Assembly: GCF_014077005.1 (NCBI RefSeq)
Contig: NZ_JACGVC010000053.1
Coordinates: forward strand, 62,001-126,000
Direction of reading: 5' to 3'
DNA length: 64,000 bases
Source: Colwellia sp. MB3u-45
GTDB taxonomy: Bacteria > Pseudomonadota > Gammaproteobacteria > Enterobacterales > Alteromonadaceae
Shown here: one piece after another, positions 5,806 through 31,283 of the stretch
Layout of the letters: each line of letters starts with the position of its first letter
Position numbering within the stretch: position 1 is the stretch's first letter
Program-made: the position numbers and the translations under genes
The notes under the pieces: generated by a model
What the model saw: the letters and a program-made list of their open reading frames with translations, nothing else
Told to the model about the DNA's origin: nothing
Database searches by the model: none

Positions 5806-6730
5806 GTTGCTGGGGTTGAGATAAGCAAAATAAATACATTAACAAACATCATTAATGTATTTATTTTAAGGCAAAGAATACGGTTATATTTGACAAAAAA
5901 AACATACAGTTCATTGAGCTAAATATTCAGACAATGTCATAAAAATTTAGCATTATGCAGGATTATTTTCTGCTATTGCTAGTGCCCACCGTCAGACCAG
6001 ATAAGGCTCTGTAAATATTGATTCCAGCTAACTAAATGCATAGCATTAGCGGATTTCTTGAACCATCACGACAACACTTTAATCATTTTTTACTAACTGT
6101 GATGCGCCCATGCATCAGAACTCGCAGTAACTGGCATGATTGATTTTGATTTGAAGGTAGACGTTAGCGATATTCATTATTTATTAAGATAAGCTTACTT
6201 TTGGCGCAGTTTTTTTATTGTTGATACTTTTTACATCAGTAAAACCTTACCTAATTTGTTAGTGATAAGTTAGGTTTAGTGAGTATATTTCAGTGCCGAA
6301 TAATATTTGTGTTGACGGTGAATGAACAATGTTTTGTAACGGCTAATTAAGATGCTTAAGTTGCTGTACTTATTTAAAGCGCAGTAGCGCCAGAAAGTCT
6401 CTTTTTGGCGGATAAAATTAGTAGCATAAATAAAGTGAACTTATGCGATGAGTTGTGCTATCTTTACGATTAATGGCATGGAAAAGAAAAAATCCTGCTT
6501 GAAGTTAAGGGAGTAAACCATTAGTAGCGCATCCAGGGACGATAGGTTGGAAGCACTCTTAATGGTTTTTTTGTGCCCAAAATTACTGATTTGCTTTGTT
6601 TTACGAAAATGGGGAGTGAAAAAGACCAAGAGCAAAAAAACAAAAACAAAAACCAAAACAAAAAAATAGAAAAATAAAATATATAACTATAAAAATACAT
6701 AATAAAATACTAATACTAGAGGAAGAGAAC
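5806..6730. other. Long intergenic region upstream of TonB receptor
   Basis: About 925 bases with no ORF I can support on either strand and no tRNA-like fold. The last 130 bases before the receptor are extremely A-rich on the plus strand (runs of caaaaa type). That makes apparent minus-strand ORFs rich in F and L, which are not believable proteins. The region presumably holds the receptor's promoter and long leader. Confidence 0.4.
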
Positions 6731-9307
6731 ATGTCATCAACATTTAAAATAGCTACCTTAGCTTTAGCGGTAAATATCGCTTTAGGTACTGCGCCAACAT
6801 TCGCTGCTGAAAATGATGCAGATAAAGTTAAAAAAGAAAACATTGAACGTATCGCTGTTGTAGGCTCTCGTGGTGCACCACGTTCAGTTGATAATTCACC
6901 GGTTCCTATTGATTTAATTGGTGCAGCAGAGCTAGAAAGATCGGGTAACACCGATATGCTTGAATTGTTAAAAGGTACTGTACCTTCGTTTAACGTACAG
7001 AGTAACCCAATCTCAGATGCCGCCAGCTTAGTTAAACCTGCTAATCTTCGTGGTCTTTCATCAGACAGTACGTTAATACTTGTTAATGGTAAACGCCGTC
7101 ATCGTGCTTCTGTTATTGCATTGTTAGGTGGTGGTATTAATGACGGTGCTCAAGGTCCTGATATTTCAGTTATCCCAAGTTCTGCTCTAAAACAAGTTGA
7201 AGTTTTACGTGACGGTGCTGCAGCACAATACGGCTCAGATGCTATCGCAGGTGTAATGAACTTCGTCTTAAAAAATGATGCAGATGGTGGTTCATTAAAC
7301 GTACGTCATGGTTCATATTATGAAGGCGATGGCGATACGACTGAAGTCTCTGGTAATATTGGTATGGCATTGACTGAAGATGGTTTTGCCAACCTGAGTT
7401 TTCAATATAAAAATGCTGATGCAACTAGTCGAAGTGTACAACGTCCTGACGCTCAAGGTTTTATTGATGCCGGCAACACAAATGTTGAAGCGATAACTCA
7501 AGTTTGGGGTTCTCCAGAAGTTAATGATGACATCACTATTTTTGGTAACTTTGGTTTAGATATCGGTAACGACCGTGAAGTGTATATGTTTGGTAACTTC
7601 TCTGAACGTGATGTTCGTGGTGGTTTCTATTATCGTAATCCACATAACCGTGGTGGCGTTTACTCTAATGACGACGGTGCTTCATTATTGATTGGCGATC
7701 TTGCGCAATCTGAGGGTGCTGAGAGAACTTGTCAACCTGTAGCTATCACTACCGGTAACGTGTTAACTCAACAAAATTACATTGATAATGTCGCAAATAA
7801 TGATAATTGTTTTTCATTCAATGAATTAGCACCAGGCGGATTTACACCTAACTTTGGTGGTAACATTGTTGATACAGCAATAACCATGGGAACACGTGGT
7901 CAGTTTGATGACACTTTGTCTTATGACGTCAGTGGTTCTGTAGGTCGTAACGAATCAAGTTACGTTATCTACAACACGTTAAATGCGTCGTTAGGTCCTG
8001 AAACACCACGTGACTTTAATCCAGGTAGCCACGTTCAACTTGAAAAGTTCTTTAACATTGATTTAGTCAAAGAACTTGAAGTAGGCATGGAGATGCCACT
8101 CATTATTGCTGGTGGTTATGAATACCATCAAGAAACTTTCGAAGTGACTGCAGGTGACGAAGCATCTTTTACCGCAGGTCCATATACAGACCAAGGTTTT
8201 AGTATCGGCTCTAACGGTTTTCCTGGCTTTAAACCCTCTTCAGCCGGTTCATTTTCTCGTCAAAACTATGCGCTTTATCTTGATGTTGAAGCACAATACA
8301 CTGAAAACTTCTTAATGGGCTATGCCCTACGTTTTGAAGATTACAGTACTTTTGGTAATACCACTAACTATAAAGTAACGGCACAATATAATGTAACCGA
8401 TGATTTCTCAGTACGTGGCTCAGTAAGTTCAGGCTTCCGTGCACCAACGGTTGGTCAAGCTAACTATTCTAATGTGCAAACCTCTTTAGATGGCGGTGAG
8501 TTGGTTGATTCTGCTTTATTGCCAGCATCTAACCCTGTAGCAATGCAACTTGGTGCAAAAGAACTAACACCAGAAGAATCAGAAAGCATTTCATTAGGTG
8601 CGGTTTGGGAAATAGAAGGTATCCATTTCACACTTGATTATTACAATATTGAAGTAACTGATCGTGTTTCTCAGTCAACTAAATATAACTTAACCGCTGA
8701 TGATAAAGTTAAGTTAAAAGCTGATGGTGTACCAAACGTAGATTCAATTCAACAAGTAAGTTTCTTTACTAATGATTTTGATACTACAACTCAAGGTGTT
8801 GATTTTGTAGCTAACTATTCAACGAGTTTGTTAGATGGTGATACCACATTTGGTTTAGCTTATAACTGGAATGAGACAACTGTTGATACTTACACTGAAA
8901 TCACAGGTGACGGTAAAGTTTCTCGTTTAGAAAATGATTTACCTAACCATCGTGCGACCTTTACTTGGTCACAAAGTTGGGACAATGTCAGTATGTTTAC
9001 CCGTGTAAACTACTACGGTGAATACCAAGGCGTGCACGTTGATTGGATAGGCTCTCCAGCTGAACCAGGAACAGAAATTGTTGCTGACTCAGAAGTTACT
9101 GTTGATGTTGAAGTGAGCTATCACGTTATGGAAGATTTCAAAGTGAGTGTTGGTGCTCAGAATATATTTGACGAATACCCGAATGAGCTTGATTTTGAGC
9201 AACAAACAGGTGCGGCAAATAATAGCTGGGGCGGTAAATACTATGAAACATCACCATTTGGTTTTAACGGTGGTTTCTACTACGTAAAAGCAACTTATAG
9301 CTTTTAA
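6731..9307 (+). CDS. TonB-dependent outer-membrane receptor
   Basis: An 858-residue TonB-dependent transporter. It has a signal peptide (cleavage likely after PTFA), a TonB-box-like segment (IERIAVVGSR, about residues 37-46), a plug domain ending LRDGAAAQYGSDAIAGVMNFVLK, and a long 22-stranded barrel. It ends in the aromatic YVKATYSF typical of BAM substrates. Such receptors take up siderophores, vitamins or oligosaccharides by energy from TonB-ExbBD. No substrate-specific enzyme or regulator is adjacent, so the cargo cannot be named. A good ribosome site (gaggaag) precedes the ATG, and a strong terminator shows it is transcribed alone. Confidence 0.93.
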   Translation: MSSTFKIATLALAVNIALGTAPTFAAENDADKVKKENIERIAVVGSRGAPRSVDNSPVPIDLIGAAELERSGNTDMLELLKGTVPSFNVQSNPISDAASLVKPANLRGLSSDSTLILVNGKRRHRASVIALLGGGINDGAQGPDISVIPSSALKQVEVLRDGAAAQYGSDAIAGVMNFVLKNDADGGSLNVRHGSYYEGDGDTTEVSGNIGMALTEDGFANLSFQYKNADATSRSVQRPDAQGFIDAGNTNVEAITQVWGSPEVNDDITIFGNFGLDIGNDREVYMFGNFSERDVRGGFYYRNPHNRGGVYSNDDGASLLIGDLAQSEGAERTCQPVAITTGNVLTQQNYIDNVANNDNCFSFNELAPGGFTPNFGGNIVDTAITMGTRGQFDDTLSYDVSGSVGRNESSYVIYNTLNASLGPETPRDFNPGSHVQLEKFFNIDLVKELEVGMEMPLIIAGGYEYHQETFEVTAGDEASFTAGPYTDQGFSIGSNGFPGFKPSSAGSFSRQNYALYLDVEAQYTENFLMGYALRFEDYSTFGNTTNYKVTAQYNVTDDFSVRGSVSSGFRAPTVGQANYSNVQTSLDGGELVDSALLPASNPVAMQLGAKELTPEESESISLGAVWEIEGIHFTLDYYNIEVTDRVSQSTKYNLTADDKVKLKADGVPNVDSIQQVSFFTNDFDTTTQGVDFVANYSTSLLDGDTTFGLAYNWNETTVDTYTEITGDGKVSRLENDLPNHRATFTWSQSWDNVSMFTRVNYYGEYQGVHVDWIGSPAEPGTEIVADSEVTVDVEVSYHVMEDFKVSVGAQNIFDEYPNELDFEQQTGAANNSWGGKYYETSPFGFNGGFYYVKATYSF

Positions 9308-20894: not shown

Positions 20895-22931
20895 TTATTC
20901 ATTAATTGCAAAGTTTTCTTGGTTCAATTGAGCTTCATTCCAAATAAAACCTTCGTTCCAGATAAAGCCTTCGTTCCAGATAAAACCTTCGTTCCAGATA
21001 AAACCTTCAGTATTCATAAATGCTTCATTCCAGATAAAACCTTCATTCCAGATAAAACCTTCATTCCAAATAAAGCCTTCTTCCCAAACTTCAAACTCGA
21101 AGCCTTGAATGTAGTAGTTACCATCGGCGTCTTGACGAGCAGCGCCTGTATAGTGTTGCTCACCACTTAAATCAGCTACGATATCCATGCCATTGTTAGC
21201 GCAAGCTTGTAGTGTTGATTCTACGGCTTTGATAGCATTAACACTGCCTGAGCCTTGATGAAAAGGACTATAAGCAAGTGTACCGTCTGGTGATTGTGCC
21301 ATGCTAGTACTGCCTAATAGTCGACATTTAACATCGTTAGCACTTAGGTTAGGGTTATTTTGTAGCATTAAAGCGACTATGCCGGTTACCACACCCGAAG
21401 ACTGTGAAGTACCTGACATCATGTATCGGTCTTTAGCCATTAAGTACTGTGGAAATTTAATGGCAGTTTGCATTGTTGAATTACCTAAACTAAACATATG
21501 GCCACCTGGGGCCACTAAATCAGGCTTAACAAAGGCATCATGTGTCGGACCCTGAGATGAAAATGACAACATTTTATCATCACTAGTATCTAAGGTATTG
21601 TTATCGCTGATGCCACCAACACTTATGACATAAGGTACGTTAGCAGGAACGCCAACTGTCATGGCACTAGGGCCAGTATTACCCACAGATGTTACTACTA
21701 CTATGTCTTTTTCCCATAACGCCATAACCGCTTGGTTAAGTGGATCTTGCCAATAACTTGAACGGGGCTGCGCACCGAATGACAAGTTAACAACACGAAT
21801 ATTTAACGCTTCGTGATTATCGGCAATATATTGTAAGCCACGAATAGCATCAGCATAGGTACTGTGACCGTCTGGATGAATAGCTTTTACCACCACTAAG
21901 TTAGCATCAGGTGCTACACCTTGATAATGACTAGTCATTTGACCATGCTCAACCGCACGATCGCTGTTAGCAATAATGCTAGTTACGTGAGTACCATGAA
22001 TATTTTCATCGGTCATTTTATGAGGCGAAACTTCAGTGCCGTTTATAGCGTCGTATGCTGCTTTGATTCTAGATCGGTTCGAAGTATTGCGGTTTAATGC
22101 TTTGTGAGCACCCCAAAGGCCACTGTCGACTACGGCTACAGTAACGTTTTTACCGGTAATACCCATATTGTGTAATGCATCTGCACCAATAATATTGACG
22201 TAATAGGTGTTGCTGTCACCATCAATACTTTGAGTTTCGTAACCTTTTGCCAATTCACGGTCACAATTTTCAGCGAAACTCACATCCATCGAAAAATCGT
22301 TGTGCATGTAACTATCAGTACCATTATTTGTAAAAGCTAATTCAACCGTCGCATCTTCATAAGCGTCTAAAAATGCAGTGGCAGGAATATCCGCGGCATT
22401 AAGTACTAACTCGCCATTTTGATCTGCTATTACGCTAACAAATACAGGAAGACCATTGATTTTAAGTGTACGTATATTGCCTAATCCTGCAGGCCAATTA
22501 AAGGTCATTTTATTGAAATTTACTTTTTGGTCTTTGGCATTATAAATATTCCAGCGGATTTTGTTAGCTGACATTTCAACGACATGGCTGCCGTAAACTT
22601 TACAGTTATCAAGTGCACTGGCGGTAAAAACTGCTTCGTTTTTAATGATGGTAATAACGCCTTCAAATAATCTTAAAGTCGCTAACTCGGTATCACTTAC
22701 GCTTACAGCAAGTCCGTTTATTAATGACAATTCGTGAGTGATAAGTCCACCTACATCACCAATAATCTTCTTAACACTTAAAATATCATTACCTTGAATG
22801 ATCACTTCGTTGTGGCGTTCAACCACGGGATCTAATAAGCTTTTAGCACTGTGAGCGGAGAAAGGTATTGCTGAAATGCTTAACATTCCAACTAACAGCA
22901 TGGCACTCTTATGAATATATTTTAGCTTCAT
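20895..22931 (-). CDS. Secreted S8 subtilisin-like protease with C-terminal GFIWNE repeats
   Basis: A 678-residue protease with a signal peptide (MKLKYIHKSAMLLVGMLSIS, cleavage near AHS-AK). A propeptide-like region of about 230 residues precedes the S8 domain. The triad is complete: D269 (VAVVDSGLWG), the His in NIHGTHVTSI, and the Ser in MSGTSQSSGV, with the oxyanion Asn in TSVGNTGPS. After a short post-catalytic region come hexapeptide repeats (EGFIWN, seven copies plus one variant) and a tail ENFAINE. The ATG has a good ribosome site (agga). The gene ends with its own terminator. Extracellular proteolysis is the likely role. The function of the aromatic repeats is unknown. Confidence 0.92.
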   Translation of the reverse strand: MKLKYIHKSAMLLVGMLSISAIPFSAHSAKSLLDPVVERHNEVIIQGNDILSVKKIIGDVGGLITHELSLINGLAVSVSDTELATLRLFEGVITIIKNEAVFTASALDNCKVYGSHVVEMSANKIRWNIYNAKDQKVNFNKMTFNWPAGLGNIRTLKINGLPVFVSVIADQNGELVLNAADIPATAFLDAYEDATVELAFTNNGTDSYMHNDFSMDVSFAENCDRELAKGYETQSIDGDSNTYYVNIIGADALHNMGITGKNVTVAVVDSGLWGAHKALNRNTSNRSRIKAAYDAINGTEVSPHKMTDENIHGTHVTSIIANSDRAVEHGQMTSHYQGVAPDANLVVVKAIHPDGHSTYADAIRGLQYIADNHEALNIRVVNLSFGAQPRSSYWQDPLNQAVMALWEKDIVVVTSVGNTGPSAMTVGVPANVPYVISVGGISDNNTLDTSDDKMLSFSSQGPTHDAFVKPDLVAPGGHMFSLGNSTMQTAIKFPQYLMAKDRYMMSGTSQSSGVVTGIVALMLQNNPNLSANDVKCRLLGSTSMAQSPDGTLAYSPFHQGSGSVNAIKAVESTLQACANNGMDIVADLSGEQHYTGAARQDADGNYYIQGFEFEVWEEGFIWNEGFIWNEGFIWNEAFMNTEGFIWNEGFIWNEGFIWNEGFIWNEAQLNQENFAINE
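20937..21080 (-). repeat. Eight tandem 18-bp coding repeats (EGFIWN)
   Basis: Eight head-to-tail 18-bp units code for EGFIWN three times, the variant EAFMNT once, then EGFIWN four times (residues 618-665). Units differ mostly at silent positions (aat/aac, ttc/ttt, ggt/ggc), so the peptide is under selection even if copy number moves by slippage. Confidence 0.92.
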
Positions 22932-23398
22932 ATGTCATTTTCCTAAATATCTATATCTTTTACCTATTATCAATATTATTGCAAATTTCGAGCCATAAAC
23001 CAAGTAACTGATTTTAAGTGCTTTAATTTAATTTGAAATAAATGACATGTTTGAATTGAAGTTAGCGAAGGTAATTATTGAATGTTTACGGTAATGATTT
23101 ACAGTCATTTATTTCAAGTAAGAGGTGGTTTATTGTTTTTGTTATTTAAATCATGTTGCTAGTAAAATAAGATCCGCATCACATCGGGTGAAAATATCTG
23201 ATGAAATTTTAAATACACTTATAGCCGCTATAATTATAAAACTCACGAAGTATGTAAGTTGATGAAATAATTAATATCAAAATATTTTAAATTTAGTTTT
23301 TAAAAATAGTTTTCAACTATGTTGGAATAAACACCTCACGTCATCCGTTATCTCAGTGTCATTAACATAAATATAAACAGACATTAGAGGAAGTAAAT
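22932..23398. other. Divergent intergenic region between subtilase and repeat-protein gene
   Basis: 467 bases with no credible ORF. The right end carries the ECF-like promoter of the plus-strand gene (23324-23349). I searched the minus strand for the same GGAA/CGT motif ahead of the subtilase and did not find it, so the two divergent genes are probably controlled differently. Confidence 0.45.
23324..23349 (+). promoter_or_regulatory. Candidate ECF-sigma promoter of the repeat-protein gene
   Basis: GGAATA (23324-23329), a 16-base spacer, then CGTT (23346-23349), about 50 bases before the ATG. The pattern matches the ECF layout (GGAA...N16...CGT). It is shared with both divergent promoters at 26941-26997 next to the local ECF sigma gene. 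Inference from pattern only. Confidence 0.5.
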
Positions 23399-24568
23399 AT
23401 GACTACATTAAATAAAATTGCACAAGTATTGGTATTAAGTGGCGTGAGTTGTTGGGTCAGTATTACGCAAGCTGCTGATTTTGAAATTAGCCAAAGCACC
23501 AACATAAACCAACAAACTCAGGCATCTCAGCAAGTTGACTCATCTGATAATGCGACACAAATATCGACACAATCAGACACGTCAGCCCAGAGCGATACGC
23601 AAGTTAAGGCGAATAGTAAAGAAGAGAACACAGTAGAGAACGCAGCAGAAAACACAGCAGAGTCTGCACCAAGCGAATCAACAGCACAGTCGTCAAATAA
23701 CACAGCGAATGTTGGCACAGCGCAAGCCTTTGATAACAATAGCCAGTTAATAACTCGTTTATCAAATGACGCTGGAAAAAACATCAATGTCACTTCAGCT
23801 ACAGCAGCAACATTGGCTCAGTCACTTACCCAAGTGACAAGCGCAGAGTTTCCAGCATTAGCTGAAAGTAATACACCTGAAAACTCTGAAATAGGGTCTG
23901 AAGCAGCTGTGCCGAGTGAAGCCATGCCAACGCCTGAAAATGTTGCTGTGAATCCTACGCTTGATAGTGCAACGTCTTTTGTTAACACTTCACAATTAAC
24001 GCAGCAATTATCTTTGCAGCCTTCTCAGCAACCCACTCTACAGCCCTCTGAGCAATTCCCTTTGCAAGAAATGGCTAATGTTGAAAACATCAGCGCATTA
24101 GATACAGCTTCGAGTTTGAGTCAGTCACTTACTCAAGTGACAAGCGCAGAGTTTCCAGCGCTAGCAGAAAGTGCTGCACCAGAGGAGCCTGAAGTAGGGT
24201 CTGAAGCAACTATGCCGAGTGAAGCCATGCCAGCACCTGAAAATGTTGCCTTGAACCCTACGCTTGATAGCGCAACGTCTTTTGCTAACACTTCGCAAAT
24301 AACTCAGCAACTTTCCCTACAAGAAATAGCTAATGTTCAAAACATCACTGCATTAGATGCGGCAGCACAAACCTCGCAAGCGCTTGAGCAAACGATTAAT
24401 GCCAATGTTGAAGATGCAATCACCTCAAGTACGCAAAGTGTTATCAGTGAAAACCTTAATACGCAAATTACCAGTGCGGTTACTGAGCAAATTAACACCG
24501 AGTTGGCGGCTGCAACCGCTGCTGAAGTGGTTAGTACCTTAACAAGCGATTTAGCGTTAGCTTGGTAA
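23399..24568 (+). CDS. Secreted low-complexity protein with two long internal repeats
   Basis: I do not recognise the family. A 389-residue protein with a signal peptide (cleavage likely after SITQA), then about 100 residues rich in S, T, Q, N and E. Two copies of a 101-residue module follow, starting SLTQVTSAEFPALAES and including PSEAMP-PENVA-NPTLDSATSF and SQ-TQQLSLQ. The C-terminal 75 residues look helical (AVTEQINTELAAATAAEVV). It is acidic, lacks cysteine in the mature part and has no membrane segment after the signal. The ribosome site (gagga) is good. It stands first in a two-gene unit with a beta-barrel and behind an ECF-like promoter, so an exported surface or matrix protein is likely. 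The function is unknown. Confidence 0.7.
   Translation: MTTLNKIAQVLVLSGVSCWVSITQAADFEISQSTNINQQTQASQQVDSSDNATQISTQSDTSAQSDTQVKANSKEENTVENAAENTAESAPSESTAQSSNNTANVGTAQAFDNNSQLITRLSNDAGKNINVTSATAATLAQSLTQVTSAEFPALAESNTPENSEIGSEAAVPSEAMPTPENVAVNPTLDSATSFVNTSQLTQQLSLQPSQQPTLQPSEQFPLQEMANVENISALDTASSLSQSLTQVTSAEFPALAESAAPEEPEVGSEATMPSEAMPAPENVALNPTLDSATSFANTSQITQQLSLQEIANVQNITALDAAAQTSQALEQTINANVEDAITSSTQSVISENLNTQITSAVTEQINTELAAATAAEVVSTLTSDLALAW
23822..24379 (+). repeat. Two direct 303-bp-period coding repeats
   Basis: Copy one starts at 23822 and copy two at 24125 (period 303 bp). Both open with the codons for SLTQVTSAEFPALAES. Copy one carries an extra glutamine/proline-rich insert (near 24020-24065) that copy two lacks. 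The second copy fades into the unique C-terminal segment near 24379. Confidence 0.8.
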
Positions 24569-24585
24569 TTGTTGCCATGTTGAAT

Positions 24586-24612
24586 GTGCCAGTAGCCCTG
24601 GCACTTTTTTTT
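24586..24612 (+). terminator. Terminator between repeat-protein and beta-barrel genes
   Basis: A perfect 7-bp stem gtgccag/ctggcac (24586-24592 with 24598-24604) and eight T, only 17 bases before the next ATG. No room for a separate promoter is evident, so this probably acts as an attenuator that lowers expression of the downstream barrel relative to the secreted protein. Confidence 0.85.
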
Positions 24613-24628
24613 ATTTGAGGTAGTTAAG

Positions 24629-25546
24629 ATGAAATATATATTAAGTGGTTTAAGCTGTGTTTTAAGTCTACATTTAATGGCGGCAACATCAGAGCCTATG
24701 TCGGTTAACGGCGAAGTTTCTTTAGGTCTAATTAGTAATTCAGCACTCAGTGTTGATGAGCTTGATGAGGTTTCTTCACAAGGTGACAGTGGCCTGCAAA
24801 AAACAGCAGCAGTTACTGGTTTGTGGAAAGTTAATGATAAAGCAAAAATAAGCGCGGCATATCGTTATAATGAAAAAGATTATAATGAGTTTGATGCCTT
24901 CGACCTAACCTTACATCAAGTGAGTCTTGATGCTAGTTATCAATGGCGTAAAAAAGATTTAGGCCTGCGTTATGATGGGGCTAAGGCCCAATTAGCCGGC
25001 GATAGCTTTTTAACCTTTCACCAAGCCAGTATTTACCTAGGCACTTTTCTGCAACCAGAAACATTTTTACGTACCAGTGCAAAAATTAAAAGTAAAAAAT
25101 TTGCCGTGATCACTAGCCGCAATGCCGACGCTTTTGGTGCTAGTGCTGAGCTGTTCCATTTTCTTAACGACGGTGACACTATGTTTATGCTCGGGGTGAG
25201 TGCGGGTAAGGAAACGGCTACAGACCCTAAGTTTAATTATAATGGTTATGGGCTGAGTACTAAGCTTTCGCAAAAGTTTGAATTATTTGGTTTAGCGCAA
25301 AAAGCTGCTATAGGCTGGCGTTTTCAATCGAAAGATTATCAAGCCTATGGTAATGAGAATATGGACAGTCAGCTTGAGTCAAAGGCAGATGAACATAGAA
25401 ACATTTTTCACGCGCAATGGCAGTTAGACTTCAATAAATATCTCGCGTTGGTCAGCAACCTTGAATATGGCGATTACCGTTCACAACTTGATAGCCAAAC
25501 GTACAGCCAAACCCTTTCTTCATTGTCTATTAAAGCGCAATTTTAA
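24629..25546 (+). CDS. Predicted outer-membrane beta-barrel protein
   Basis: A 305-residue protein with a signal peptide (MKYILSGLSCVLSLHLMA, cleavage near A-AT). The mature part is almost all alternating amphipathic strands (KISAAYRYNEKDY, LGLRYDGAKAQL, AAIGWRFQSKDYQAYG, YLALVSNLEYGDY). It ends SIKAQF, an aromatic C-terminus typical of BAM clients. About 12-14 strands fit the length. It resembles the barrel part of surface-assembly proteins but lacks a TPR domain. It follows the secreted repeat protein by 60 bases, so it may anchor or export that protein, which is inference. It overlaps the convergent subtilase gene by 4 bases. Confidence 0.72.
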   Translation: MKYILSGLSCVLSLHLMAATSEPMSVNGEVSLGLISNSALSVDELDEVSSQGDSGLQKTAAVTGLWKVNDKAKISAAYRYNEKDYNEFDAFDLTLHQVSLDASYQWRKKDLGLRYDGAKAQLAGDSFLTFHQASIYLGTFLQPETFLRTSAKIKSKKFAVITSRNADAFGASAELFHFLNDGDTMFMLGVSAGKETATDPKFNYNGYGLSTKLSQKFELFGLAQKAAIGWRFQSKDYQAYGNENMDSQLESKADEHRNIFHAQWQLDFNKYLALVSNLEYGDYRSQLDSQTYSQTLSSLSIKAQF

Positions 25547-26901
25547 GGTCTAAAGATCGCGCCCACACCATAAATAGGGTCCTTACCTTTAGGGCCCAAA
25601 TCTATCGCTAAATCATTTAGTTTATCTAATAAATTCTGCTTATTCTTACCATAAGTTAGCGCTAAACAGGCTAAGGTTGCTGTAACATATGGGGCAGCAA
25701 TCGATGTGCCTGACTCCCTACCTACACGTTGGCCACTTTGCGCTGTGAGTACATTTACCCCTAACGCTGAGTAATCGACATAGTCACCTCTATTTGACCA
25801 ACGATACGGTTGTTGATGTTTATCTATCGCACTGACCGCGATAACCTCTTGATAAGCGGCAGGATACATAGGCGGAGCTGCCGGCCCTTCATTACCCGCC
25901 GCGGCGATAACGATTGCACCTTTTGCGATAGCGGCGCTTAGTACGCTATGCAAAATTTGATTGTCCGGCCCCGCTAAACTCATATTGATCACTTGCACGT
26001 TTTGTTCTAACAACCAGTTCACGCCAGCGATGATGGCTGACAGCGTCGCGCCTTGGGCATAGTCTGACTGCTGATAAAATACTTGCGAGGAATATATTTT
26101 ACCCTGCGGTAACAGTGGCACCAGTTGTGTGGTTTTGCCAACCAATAAACTGGCGATCACGGTACCGTGTTGCAACGAGGTAGCTAAATCATCAGGTAAA
26201 AAAGATTTCGCGGTAATATCAGCGTGTTTAAAGGCTTTATGTTTGGTATCAATTGCGCTATCAACCAGACCCACTTTTACCGCTAATTCGCAAGCCGGAT
26301 TAACGCGGCTTAGTGGCGTTACTTTTTCATTGTCGATGTGATGACGGAGTAAACTTTCATTTTCTGGCTGACTTGTTTGACTTTGTGCTTGATAAATATG
26401 GTTTCTAGCTAAACTTAGCGCGGCTTGCGTTGAGAGTATCTGGCTTAACGCTTGCTTCGAGTCTAAAGCTTCGGGCACATTAAAACGCAGCAGCGCCATA
26501 CCCAAACCCGCATATCGCGACTCGGTAATAATCAGCGCTCCATGCTCAATTAAGCGTTTTTTACTGCTATCGTCGGCTAATAATAGCCATTGTCGCTGAA
26601 CAGCTCGAAAGCCACTTTCTACTTCGACATCAAGCCACAGATTTTTACCTGCGCTGGTGGTTATCGCTAAAGTGGCAGGCAAAGCGTTAAGTGGCTCAGT
26701 GCTAACCTTGTTAATGTCGGGTAAGTGACTTAATTCAAAAGGTGCTAGTAGCGGCGGTCTATCGAGTTGTCGGGTAATGTCGCGGGCGGTACCGTCTATG
26801 GTATTAATTTGTCCTAAAACACCGCCTGCCGGCAATTGCTGGGCAGATGATAATGTACTGAAAACAGCAATAAATATGGCGGTAAAAGCTAAGGTTTTCA
26901 T
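25543..26901 (-). CDS. Exported S8 subtilisin-like serine protease
   Basis: A 452-residue protease. I choose ATG 26901 (MKTLAFTAIFIAVFSTLSSA, a clear signal peptide); the longer frame starts with TTG. A propeptide-like segment of about 190 residues precedes the catalytic domain. The triad is present: Asp in VGLVDSAIDT, His in LQHGTVIASLL and Ser in ESGTSIAAPYV, with Asn in AAAGNEGP. The catalytic domain is short, about 235 residues. It is divergent from the ECF sigma operon and carries a matching ECF-like promoter, so it is probably a member of that regulon. It could process the neighbouring secreted repeat protein or the anti-sigma factor. Both are inference. Confidence 0.9.
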   Translation of the reverse strand: MKTLAFTAIFIAVFSTLSSAQQLPAGGVLGQINTIDGTARDITRQLDRPPLLAPFELSHLPDINKVSTEPLNALPATLAITTSAGKNLWLDVEVESGFRAVQRQWLLLADDSSKKRLIEHGALIITESRYAGLGMALLRFNVPEALDSKQALSQILSTQAALSLARNHIYQAQSQTSQPENESLLRHHIDNEKVTPLSRVNPACELAVKVGLVDSAIDTKHKAFKHADITAKSFLPDDLATSLQHGTVIASLLVGKTTQLVPLLPQGKIYSSQVFYQQSDYAQGATLSAIIAGVNWLLEQNVQVINMSLAGPDNQILHSVLSAAIAKGAIVIAAAGNEGPAAPPMYPAAYQEVIAVSAIDKHQQPYRWSNRGDYVDYSALGVNVLTAQSGQRVGRESGTSIAAPYVTATLACLALTYGKNKQNLLDKLNDLAIDLGPKGKDPIYGVGAIFRP

Positions 26902-26940
26902 GTTAATCTTGAGCCTCAAAAATAAGCGTGTAGTTAATAA

Positions 26941-26966
26941 AACGTTTCAACTGAAAATAAATTTCC
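26941..26966 (-). promoter_or_regulatory. Candidate ECF-sigma promoter of the subtilase gene
   Basis: On the minus strand, GGAAAT (26966-26961), a 16-base spacer, then CGTT (26944-26941), about 40 bases before the ATG at 26901. It stands back to back with the sigma gene's own candidate promoter; the two -35 elements are 6 bases apart. Confidence 0.5.
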
Positions 26967-26972
26967 TTTTAT

Positions 26973-26997
26973 GGAATAAAATTTTTTTACATACGTC
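26973..26997 (+). promoter_or_regulatory. Candidate autoregulatory ECF-sigma promoter
   Basis: GGAATA (26973-26978), a 15-base T-rich spacer, then CGTC (26994-26997), 25 bases before the sigma-factor ATG. Autoregulation is the rule for ECF sigma operons, so this is a natural place for the motif. Confidence 0.55.
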
Positions 26998-27022
26998 TTC
27001 TTAGTAGAGAGGAGTAAAAAAC

Positions 27023-27514
27023 ATGAATAATACCATTGAAAATATACTACCAATGCTAAGACGCTTTGCCTACTCATTAACCGGTAATGCCGCAGATGCT
27101 GACGATTTAGTGCAAATAACGTTAGAAAAAATACTGAAAAAAGGTGTGCCTGATGAAGTAGATGTCAACAAATGGGCTTTTAAGGTTTGTCGCAATGTCT
27201 GGATTGACGAATATCGTGCGCGCAAAGTCAGGCAGAATGCAGTGCTTAAACCTGAACTGCAAGAACCACAAAGCGTGAATGAACAGCAAGCATTCGACAG
27301 CAAAGAAATGCTCGCACAAGTTAATGTCGCGATGAATACTTTACCCGACGAACAACGCGCTATTTTGTCTTTAGTGGCGGTACAGGGTATGTCATATAAA
27401 GAAGTGGCGTCGTCAATGGAAATCCCTGTTGGTACTGTGATGAGTCGATTATCAAGAGCGCGCTGCGCATTATTAGATATGATAAAGCCTGAAAGATTAG
27501 GAGCAGACGCATGA
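27023..27514 (+). CDS. ECF-type RNA polymerase sigma factor
   Basis: A 163-residue sigma factor. Region 2 (about residues 8-75) shows RRFAYSLTGNAADADDLVQITLEKIL and the WAFKVCRNVWIDEYR helix. Region 4 (about 105-155) shows LPDEQRAILSLVAVQGMSYKEVA followed by the recognition helix IPVGTVMSRLSRAR. Region 3 is absent, as in the ECF class. Ribosome site gagagga. Its stop overlaps the start of the next gene (ATGA), so sigma and anti-sigma are translationally coupled. It probably drives its own operon and the two flanking surface units through GGAA/CGT promoters. Confidence 0.93.
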   Translation: MNNTIENILPMLRRFAYSLTGNAADADDLVQITLEKILKKGVPDEVDVNKWAFKVCRNVWIDEYRARKVRQNAVLKPELQEPQSVNEQQAFDSKEMLAQVNVAMNTLPDEQRAILSLVAVQGMSYKEVASSMEIPVGTVMSRLSRARCALLDMIKPERLGADA

Positions 27515-28275
27515 AAATCAGCGATGAAATGTTAAGTGCTTTTATAGATGCTGAACTTAGCGAAGCAGCCATGGAAGAGATTCGCTGTGCGCTGGAAAGC
27601 GATGACGATTTAGTGATGCGTTTAGCGGATTTAGCACAAGCGGATCACTGGGTGGCAGAAAATGCTTCTGTGATTGATAGCACACCGATGGCAGATAATT
27701 TATTGCCATTAGCGCAAAGCATCGATAAAAAAATAGCGAAAGGAAAAACGACTGAGTCAGCGGCTGACTCAGCGAAAAATGTCGTGAGTTTATCCGCTTG
27801 GAAAAACTTCAATAAAAGCCTACAAAAGCCTTATGCATTGGCCGCTGGTGTTGCCATGTTATTTGGCGTAGGTACGGTAACCTTAATGCAGTCTCAACAA
27901 GCACCGACAGTGCTTACTGCGGGTATAACACAAGTATTAGATCAGCAGCGAAGTGGCGAAATATCGTCAATAGCGCAAGGAGATAAGATCACAGCCAACT
28001 TAAGTTTTACTAACCGTGCCGGTGATTACTGTCGCCAATTTCAGCGCGTTAGCGAGCAAACGGCGAGTGTTAATATTGCTTGTAAAGAAAATGGCCTATG
28101 GCAGTTAAAAATTACCGAAAAAGTAAAAATTACTGAAAACACACAAAATTACCGCGCCGCGTCTAACCAGGCGCAACTGGATAGCGCTATAGACGTGATG
28201 ATCAATGGACCCGCTATGGACAGCGCTCAAGAACAACGAGCCATCGCAAACAACTGGCAAACTGAGCAACAATAA
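27511..28275 (+). CDS. Membrane anti-sigma factor
   Basis: A 254-residue protein starting inside the sigma gene stop. The N-terminal about 50 residues (ISDEMLSAFIDAELSEAAMEEI) resemble the anti-sigma domain of RseA/RsiW-like proteins but lack the HxxxCxxC zinc motif. One membrane helix lies near residues 108-126 (YALAAGVAMLFGVGTVTLM). The periplasmic part of about 125 residues has two cysteines (DYCRQF, IACKENG) that could form a disulfide. The topology (cytoplasmic N-terminus, single helix, periplasmic sensor) suits an anti-sigma released by proteolysis. Function is assigned mainly from position and topology. Confidence 0.82.
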   Translation: MKISDEMLSAFIDAELSEAAMEEIRCALESDDDLVMRLADLAQADHWVAENASVIDSTPMADNLLPLAQSIDKKIAKGKTTESAADSAKNVVSLSAWKNFNKSLQKPYALAAGVAMLFGVGTVTLMQSQQAPTVLTAGITQVLDQQRSGEISSIAQGDKITANLSFTNRAGDYCRQFQRVSEQTASVNIACKENGLWQLKITEKVKITENTQNYRAASNQAQLDSAIDVMINGPAMDSAQEQRAIANNWQTEQQ

Positions 28276-28286
28276 TAGAGGTTAAA

Positions 28287-28817
28287 ATGAAAAAACTTAT
28301 TACATTTATATTGATGACTTTATTAGTAACGGCTTGCGCATCTAAGCCTGAATATCGCCCAGCAAACAAAGGCTCTGTCGGCTATAGCGAGCAAAAAATA
28401 ACCGAGGACAGGTTTCGTGTGCAGTTTAAAAGTGTTTCTAATAGTGTCGCAGATGCCGCGGATTATGCCCTATTAAGATCAGCTGAACTGACTCAAGCGC
28501 AAGGCTATGATTGGTTTGTGATCACCAGTAAAGAAACCTCTGTAGAGTCTGAAAAAGTTCAGCCAGCTTCCTCGATAGGTTTATCGCATCAGCAGCGGGT
28601 TGAACGTCGTTGTGGACTATTAACTTGTGAAACTTACCGACGTCCAAGCAGTGAAGTTGGGGTTGCTTTTAGTAGTACGAATACGAATAGCCGCAAAGAA
28701 GTGCATAGTATTTTAGAAATTCGTCTGGGCAAAGGCGTTATGAGCAACGAGTCAAGTTACAGCGCTGCCGATGTGATTGAAAATTTATCTAAAAAACTAG
28801 CAACAAAGGCTAATTAA
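28287..28817 (+). CDS. Lipoprotein, CC0125/CC1285-like
   Basis: A 176-residue lipoprotein: signal MKKLITFILMTLLVTAC with the lipobox cysteine at 17. The mature part begins SKPEYRPANKGSVGYSEQKITEDRFRV and contains DAADYALLRSAELTQAQGYDWF, the pattern I associate with the CC0125/CC1285 family of unknown function. Two cysteines (RRCGLLTCE) may pair. It lies 11 bases after the anti-sigma gene with a ribosome site (agagg), so it is the third gene of the ECF operon. Probably an envelope protein expressed under the same stress. Confidence 0.8.
   Translation: MKKLITFILMTLLVTACASKPEYRPANKGSVGYSEQKITEDRFRVQFKSVSNSVADAADYALLRSAELTQAQGYDWFVITSKETSVESEKVQPASSIGLSHQQRVERRCGLLTCETYRRPSSEVGVAFSSTNTNSRKEVHSILEIRLGKGVMSNESSYSAADVIENLSKKLATKAN

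Positions 28818-29024: not shown

Positions 29025-31283
<2,259 letters not shown>

Follow-up and report, generated by a model that had tools for sequence, protein, structure and literature searches.

A conserved six-gene locus of mostly marine bacteria that may couple an ECF sigma factor to the export and processing of a low-complexity surface protein

In the Type 11 secretion system (T11SS), a 14-stranded outer-membrane barrel known as Slam (DUF560, PF04575 SlipAM) serves a dedicated exported partner encoded next to it. An N-terminal TPR region typically precedes the barrel, the cargo is usually a lipoprotein, and NalP-type surface subtilases, NalP being an autotransporter from another locus, act on Slam-dependent lipoproteins. 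In the Fap and curli systems, a repeat protein of low complexity comes with a dedicated outer-membrane barrel and a protease (FapD, C39). At the level of regulation, extracytoplasmic function (ECF) sigma factors paired with class I anti-sigma factors have sigma2 and sigma4 domains, an adjacent membrane anti-sigma and a GGAA...CGT motif before the sigma operon. Here, we describe a locus of Colwellia sp. MB3u-45 that shares features with all of these systems. It lies in a window of 64,000 nucleotides (the whole stretch of DNA analysed; contig NZ_JACGVC010000053.1, positions 62,001 to 126,000) and codes for a secreted low-complexity protein (hereafter, the cargo), an outer-membrane barrel, an exported S8 subtilase, an ECF sigma factor, a membrane anti-sigma factor and a lipoprotein. 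These six genes form a module common to many, mostly marine, bacteria which, as a unit, is apparently undescribed. Judging from conserved promoter-like sequences, its regulation by its own ECF sigma factor is very probable; that it is a self-contained, sigma-controlled surface module that exports and processes the cargo is a reading to which we give about an even chance.

The sigma protein was scanned against the genomes of 84,980 species, each represented once, which gave 58 loci. The set analysed comprises 57 loci (the window plus L021-L076), L077, from an alphaproteobacterial metagenome-assembled genome (MAG), and L078 being left out of all counts; the 57 loci fall into 19 clusters at 80% sigma identity and 12 at 70%, and are thus not independent. 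Sigma, subtilase and anti-sigma were matched in 57/57 loci and the barrel in 56/57 (tblastn), the sole locus without a barrel match, L076, being cut off 408 bases before sigma. The subtilase gene lies divergently beside sigma in 51 of the 52 loci with a surviving sigma open reading frame (ORF), L076 being the other; in L043, a 77-codon ORF stands between the two. This gene order is kept across Colwellia, Pseudoalteromonas, Glaciecola/Paraglaciecola, Alteromonas, Rheinheimera, Cellvibrio, Marinimicrobium and Marinobacter, and the cargo-barrel pair is inverted, with its own motif retained, in three Glaciecola loci. Additionally, among 60 genomes, the same eight (the window's own included) hold the barrel, the anti-sigma and a long match to the subtilase (at least 350 of the 458 residues, with E no higher than 8.8e-56), a coincidence with a chance of 4e-10 if genomes are assumed to be independent. 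The lipoprotein was found in seven of those eight, plus weaker matches in two others. A model of the anti-sigma gave 7 matches better than 1e-20 among 369 genomes of the class, and 16/398 genomes of the phylum match it at 1e-15 or better.

An initial annotation of the window had described the six ORFs and three copies of a promoter-like motif, had suggested examining the co-occurrence of the genes and had set beforehand, as the test of its proposal, the linkage of the flanking genes to sigma. All six ORFs were found, the motif copies sit where it had placed them (as pattern matches, the subtilase copy ending at 26942), subtilase, barrel and anti-sigma track together in the same 8/60 genomes, and the linkage holds across genera. 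Its statement that all products but sigma are exported is to be narrowed for the anti-sigma, which fits it only as an inner-membrane protein with a periplasmic domain. Its proposals that the barrel may export the repeat protein and that the subtilase may mature this protein or cleave the anti-sigma are plausible, and induction by envelope signals is putative.

The predicted ECF-type promoters are those of the cargo-barrel unit (23324..23348, + strand; GGAATAAACACCTCACGTCATCCGT), of the subtilase (26942..26966, - strand; GGAAATTTATTTTCAGTTGAAACGT, conserved under a relaxed pattern) and of the sigma operon (26973..26996, + strand; GGAATAAAATTTTTTTACATACGT), the last lying 6 bp away from the -35 box of the subtilase. 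Taken alone, the motif does not reach significance when the window is shuffled (4 matches versus a mean of 1.81, with 13/100 shuffles reaching 4); its significance comes from position and conservation, not from its frequency in the window. In fact, GGAATA(A/C)-N14/15-CGT is present within 140 bp upstream of sigma in 55/57 loci (anchored by tblastn) and within 1.5 kb upstream of the barrel match, for the cargo unit, in 52/56, and a relaxed T-rich motif precedes the tblastn-anchored subtilase in 57/57; the chance expectations per locus are 0.0006, 0.007 and 0.03, respectively. The subtilase pattern was loosened to [GT]G[AC]A[AT]4 after inspecting the misses of a first pass, whose counts exclude loci with a sigma or cargo ORF lost by the ORF picker. 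In that pass, GGAATAA-N-CGT was found before 51/52 sigma and 46/50 cargo genes (control ORFs, 4/572), and GGAAWWW-N-CGT before 32/56 subtilase genes (control ORFs, 8/572). When 16 missed loci were inspected, several from Glaciecola, Paraglaciecola and Pseudoalteromonas were seen to bear TGAAAT..-type sites, and in L055, L064 and L067 the motif falls inside a start called too early. The two exceptions for sigma, L064 and L068, carry GGAATATT and TGAAATAA versions. For the cargo unit there are four: L026, L059 and L071, which are short or cut loci, and L073 (Aliidiomarina), where an opposite-strand DUF4382 gene occupies the cargo position. The conserved motif positions support what the initial annotation proposed, a single unit under ECF control that has three promoters and is probably autoregulated, the binding of sigma being a prediction.

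How far this control may extend was examined with a strict form of the motif, GGAATAAA-N13/14-CGT, which is matched 5 times over the 4.17 Mb of the own genome, against 8 times for the reversed pattern. Two of the five are module sites and the other three lie inside ORFs. In six module-bearing relatives, 32 strict matches compare with 54 reversed ones; both module sites are always present and, apart from them, no matched string was seen by eye to be common to all six. The genome-wide search proposed by the initial annotation thus gives no enrichment over the reversed control, and in the own genome only module sites lie outside ORFs in the strict form. Because just these two sites are intergenic, the regulon in the own genome looks local, judged on strict sites; a wider one is unsupported for strict sites, degenerate sites being uncounted and subtilase-type sites not having been sought genome-wide. 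When the matched strings are compared by eye, three sites outside the module appear to have a counterpart in another genome: G000 C53:233213 with G008 C117:10887 and G000 C44:71565 with G005 C50:788087, both inside ORFs in G000, and G008 C116:23481 with G005 C53:179430.

The sigma factor itself (27023..27514, + strand, 163 residues) has Sigma70_r2 and Sigma70_r4_2 domains (TIGR02937, E 6.8e-26) and shows the marks of ECF (group 4) sigma factors, namely sigma2 and sigma4 domains, an adjacent anti-sigma and an operon behind its own conserved motif. The anti-sigma (27511..28275, + strand, 254 residues) has one probable transmembrane helix between a helical N-terminal domain and a periplasmic domain. 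In its structural model (predicted local distance difference test, pLDDT, 80.9) the helices lie within residues 5-78 and 109-127, which is compatible with the class I layout; a zf-HC2 match is sub-threshold (E 0.044) and no solved structure matched the fold at E <= 0.001. Cys174 and Cys191 (C174, C191) are invariant in the 28 proteins aligned, a subset of 53 (A2) from which near-duplicates had been removed by hand. A possibly broken copy was noticed at G010:C1:4227734-4228476, where the match to the anti-sigma is split in two. The operon ends with a lipoprotein of the CC0125/CC1285 family (28287..28817, + strand, 176 residues; NF047637, E 5.2e-44), relatives of which are present in 33/57 loci (BLASTP) and in none of the Marinobacter loci. 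In this pair, unlike common ECF and class I anti-sigma pairs, the sigma operon adjoins a divergent subtilase gene and, in the own genome, the strict intergenic sites are confined to the module. A subtilase-linked group, ECF54, is named in PMC8999054 and, in the part of that text concerned with it, is described as being without an anti-sigma; by contrast, the module has one in 57/57 loci.

The subtilase (25543..26919, - strand) is 458 residues long when read from the TTG of the called ORF, but an ATG at 26901 fits its signal peptide better and is the probable start. It belongs to Peptidase_S8 (PF00082, E 2e-30), and the triad D220, H251 and S406 and the oxyanion N343 are invariant in 30/30 aligned proteins (subset A3: 29 of 56, near-duplicates removed by hand, plus L008). 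A family scan revealed no translocator domain in the window protein, in which it differs from NalP; the likeness to NalP lies in the proposed action of a subtilase on surface proteins exported by a Slam-type barrel. A possibly broken copy is found at G016:C2:68838-70187, with one TAG within the subtilase match, yet the L025 ORF has 446 residues.

In a different explanation, the subtilase would be the site-1 protease of the switch, cutting the anti-sigma in its periplasmic domain; the divergent promoters would make up a positive feedback loop, and cargo and barrel would be no more than one output. The -35 boxes of the divergent promoters are 6-10 bp apart in 48/56 loci, which suits such a loop (in the other 8, the distance is 22-35 bp); as two polymerases hardly fit between them, the two promoters may compete. 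The loop is also consistent with the persistence of subtilase and anti-sigma where no barrel or cargo is recognised (L149, L150, L152 and L153), sigma being present in the first three and lacking a called ORF in L153, and with 11 further phylum-level loci in which subtilase and anti-sigma recur, sigma being labelled in 7. Against it stands the presence, in 6 of those 11 (L176, L178, L179, L182, L183 and L186), of a secreted Gly/Ala/Ser-rich low-complexity protein directly after the subtilase, which pairs the protease with cargo-like proteins as well; the ORF lists of the other five hold no such protein. We regard the site-1 explanation as possible, although rather improbable.

A third explanation gives the subtilase the role of effector: it would act outside the cell as a protease in feeding or competition, with the cargo as its scaffold, inhibitor or anchor. 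The intact catalytic residues would suit this role, and so would the coiled-coil-like periodicity (lags 4, 7 and 11) of 29 subtilase N-terminal segments and the long VED-type tetrads in the subtilases of G018, the MAG locus L077 and G774. It leaves a dedicated barrel unexplained, however, and small subtilases of such build also resemble maturases (NF049966, QhpE, is matched at E 1.3e-24, below the curated cut-off); we consider this explanation quite improbable. Long VED-type tetrapeptide stretches before the pro-region were noticed in L154:6413-8317, L184:9416-11173 and L077:7862-9814.

The barrel (24629..25546, + strand, 305 residues) has 14 strands in its AlphaFold2 model (pLDDT 89.5, predicted template modelling score 0.82). 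Its relation to Slam was assessed in 46 barrels (subset A1: 45 of 54 barrel matches, near-duplicates removed by hand, plus L008). PF04575 SlipAM was matched by 20/46 at E <= 1 and is the family touched by most members; among ten barrels chosen for single scans, it was above the cut-off in three (L041, L050 and L073). TPR is mentioned for Slam in a part of PMC8406197, whereas no TPR is found among the 25 families listed, of 27, for the 46 barrels, and the first strand begins at residue 25, immediately behind the signal peptide. The barrel seems, weakly, to be a distant Slam/SlipAM-like protein without TPR, near but not in the Slam/T11SS barrels. No Slam entry occurs among the structural matches listed for it, which excludes nothing. 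In L057:7535-8529, a possibly broken copy, the barrel is split over two ORFs.

It has also to be considered that the module could be an operon for envelope stress and not a device for export, its barrel being a small porin of the common kind and its cargo a stress protein of the periplasm or outer membrane. The nearest solved folds are in fact diffusion channels, CymA (Z 22.9, root-mean-square deviation 3.5, 272 residues aligned) and OmpG (Z up to 20.9, root-mean-square deviation 3.5, 243 aligned), with the next matches falling to 15.9, and there are weak or marginal matches to Porin_4, OMP_b-brl and BBP2_2. However, a porin would not account for the same-strand partner gene that precedes the barrel in no fewer than 53 of 56 barrel loci, for SlipAM being matched by more barrels, and at a better E-value, than any other family, or for the large DUF5666 protein that occupies the cargo slot in one genome (see below), and we find the porin explanation doubtful.

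The cargo of the window (23399..24568, + strand, 389 residues) has a signal peptide, a body rich in Q, N, S, T, A and E, an internal repeat seen by eye, and a tail with a hydrophobic residue at about every fourth position. The latter was followed in 50 cargo proteins, from the loci of the 57 with a same-strand ORF before the barrel; L052, L053, L055, L059, L068, L073 and L076 were dropped, although L052, L053 and L055 do have a cargo. Across the 50, with kinship ignored, the autocorrelation of the tail is 0.44, 0.47 and 0.40 at lags 4, 8 and 12, and negative at 3, 7 and 11, whereas an ordinary coiled coil favours lags 3-4, 7 and 11. Cys is absent from 44/50 cargos after crude trimming of the signal peptide. 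The window cargo has no Pfam family at E 0.1 beyond an ABC-transporter model at E 0.087, which is noise, no PDB sequence at E 0.1, and no Fap or curlin domain (nothing beyond noise in Pfam and NCBIfam); two PDB matches of the L184 cargo (E 0.00028 and 0.0033) were taken as compositional. The likeness to Fap and curli is thus one of plan, a low-complexity repeat protein with its own barrel and a protease, and the module differs from them in having a subtilase in place of the C39 protease, a tetrad repeat and a different barrel. Slam cargo has a C-terminal 8-stranded barrel domain (TbpBBD, lipoprotein C), as stated in a part of PMC12282271; the window cargo lacks one, and the module differs further from Slam in its ECF control and its subtilase.

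Loci outside the analysed set vary around this plan. While G405 has all six genes and three motifs, G774, from outside the class, has five (cargo, barrel at E 3.6e-69, subtilase, sigma and anti-sigma) with three motifs; the lipoprotein was not identified there, and the cargo consists almost only of (V/I/L)DDE-type tetrads. G018 belongs to a different genus of the same family; there, the place of the cargo behind the motif is taken by a protein of nine DUF5666 units in which a lipobox was recognised by eye, a lipoprotein-like partner that recalls Slam, and the subtilase bears a long (VEDD)n stretch. Among the phylum-level loci, a PRC-barrel end is matched below threshold in L182 and L186, and the strict motif is absent near sigma in L176, L178, L179, L182, L183 and L186, so that the promoter differs there. 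A similar exported protein of about 230-260 residues follows the subtilase in L149:3163-3951, L150:3234-3911 and L152:8349-9050, with no Pfam family in L150 and L152. In L174, an exported protein that is barrel-like by eye and has an acidic low-complexity insert (6258-7259, - strand) lies two ORFs downstream of the anti-sigma, with a GGAATAA motif at 8026, between the anti-sigma and this region. L151 (G123), which stops at the sigma gene, was left out. These loci point to a constant core of sigma, anti-sigma and subtilase, which a secreted low-complexity protein often accompanies, and to a Slam-like barrel in a large subset. As such a protein often goes with the core and a large subset has such a barrel, the export-and-processing module is favoured.

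Under that reading, three units would be under the ECF sigma, as is likely from the conserved promoters: the sigma operon, the subtilase and the cargo-barrel pair. In the own genome, hardly anything else with a strict site would be driven by it. The membrane anti-sigma would hold sigma until a periplasmic signal, perhaps sensed through its Cys-paired domain, frees it. The cargo, unfolded and nearly free of Cys, would cross the inner membrane by Sec; the dedicated Slam-like barrel of 14 strands would then bring it to the surface, and the exported subtilase would trim or release it. The four-residue-periodic tail could then serve self-assembly or ion binding in a coat or fibre, and the lipoprotein, missing from Marinobacter loci, would be an accessory. 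The passage of the cargo through the barrel falls just short of an even chance in our estimation, and its processing by the subtilase is held more tentatively. In its fullest form, a TPR-less Slam-type barrel would export a disordered, often acidic tetrad-repeat protein, which a paired subtilase (sometimes with the same tetrads) would trim for the assembly of a coat, perhaps with calcium, all switched by sigma and with a core that extends beyond Gammaproteobacteria; this composite, taken as a whole, is unlikely.

Several observations weigh against the export-and-processing module. The window barrel has no Pfam match at E 0.1, SlipAM included, the closest solved folds of the barrel are passive channels, and the strongest SlipAM match, that of L073, comes from the sole complete locus without the usual cargo gene. 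The window cargo is linked by BLASTP to 18 other loci only, its identity in the remaining ones resting on position, signal peptide, composition and tail, and the periodicity statistics of that tail ignore kinship. Additionally, four loci have subtilase and anti-sigma with no recognised barrel or cargo, a scan of G018 found no motif beside sigma or subtilase, and the strict motif totals in whole genomes are not above the reversed control (5 vs 8; 32 vs 54).

Two neighbouring genes were considered as members of the module. A second subtilase (20895-22931, - strand; PF00082, E 2.6e-48), with tandem EGFIWN-type repeats at its end, adjoins it in the window; it was rejected, not being adjacent to the module in relatives. 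On the other side, a catalase-peroxidase-like gene, katG by eye (29025-31277, - strand), is a neighbour of the module in no locus but the window and L021-L023 and was likewise set aside.

The initial annotation could not place the locus in a described system, and this still holds for the literature searched, although the barrel can now be set near, but not in, the Slam/T11SS group. The words sigma, Marinobacter and Pseudoalteromonas are absent from the main texts of PMC12282271 and PMC8406197, and subtilisin from that of the former. No description of the six-gene unit was found in the literature searched, and the large re-classification of ECF sigma factors may already catalogue such a group. 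If the proposed reading is true, an ECF-regulated, TPR-less branch with a wholly different cargo would be added to the Slam/T11SS barrels, and two nearly touching divergent ECF promoters would constitute a compact switch. A widespread, uncharacterised family of repeat proteins from mostly marine bacteria would also be opened to testing, in a module that, with six genes and three promoters, is compact enough to be transferred to a laboratory host.

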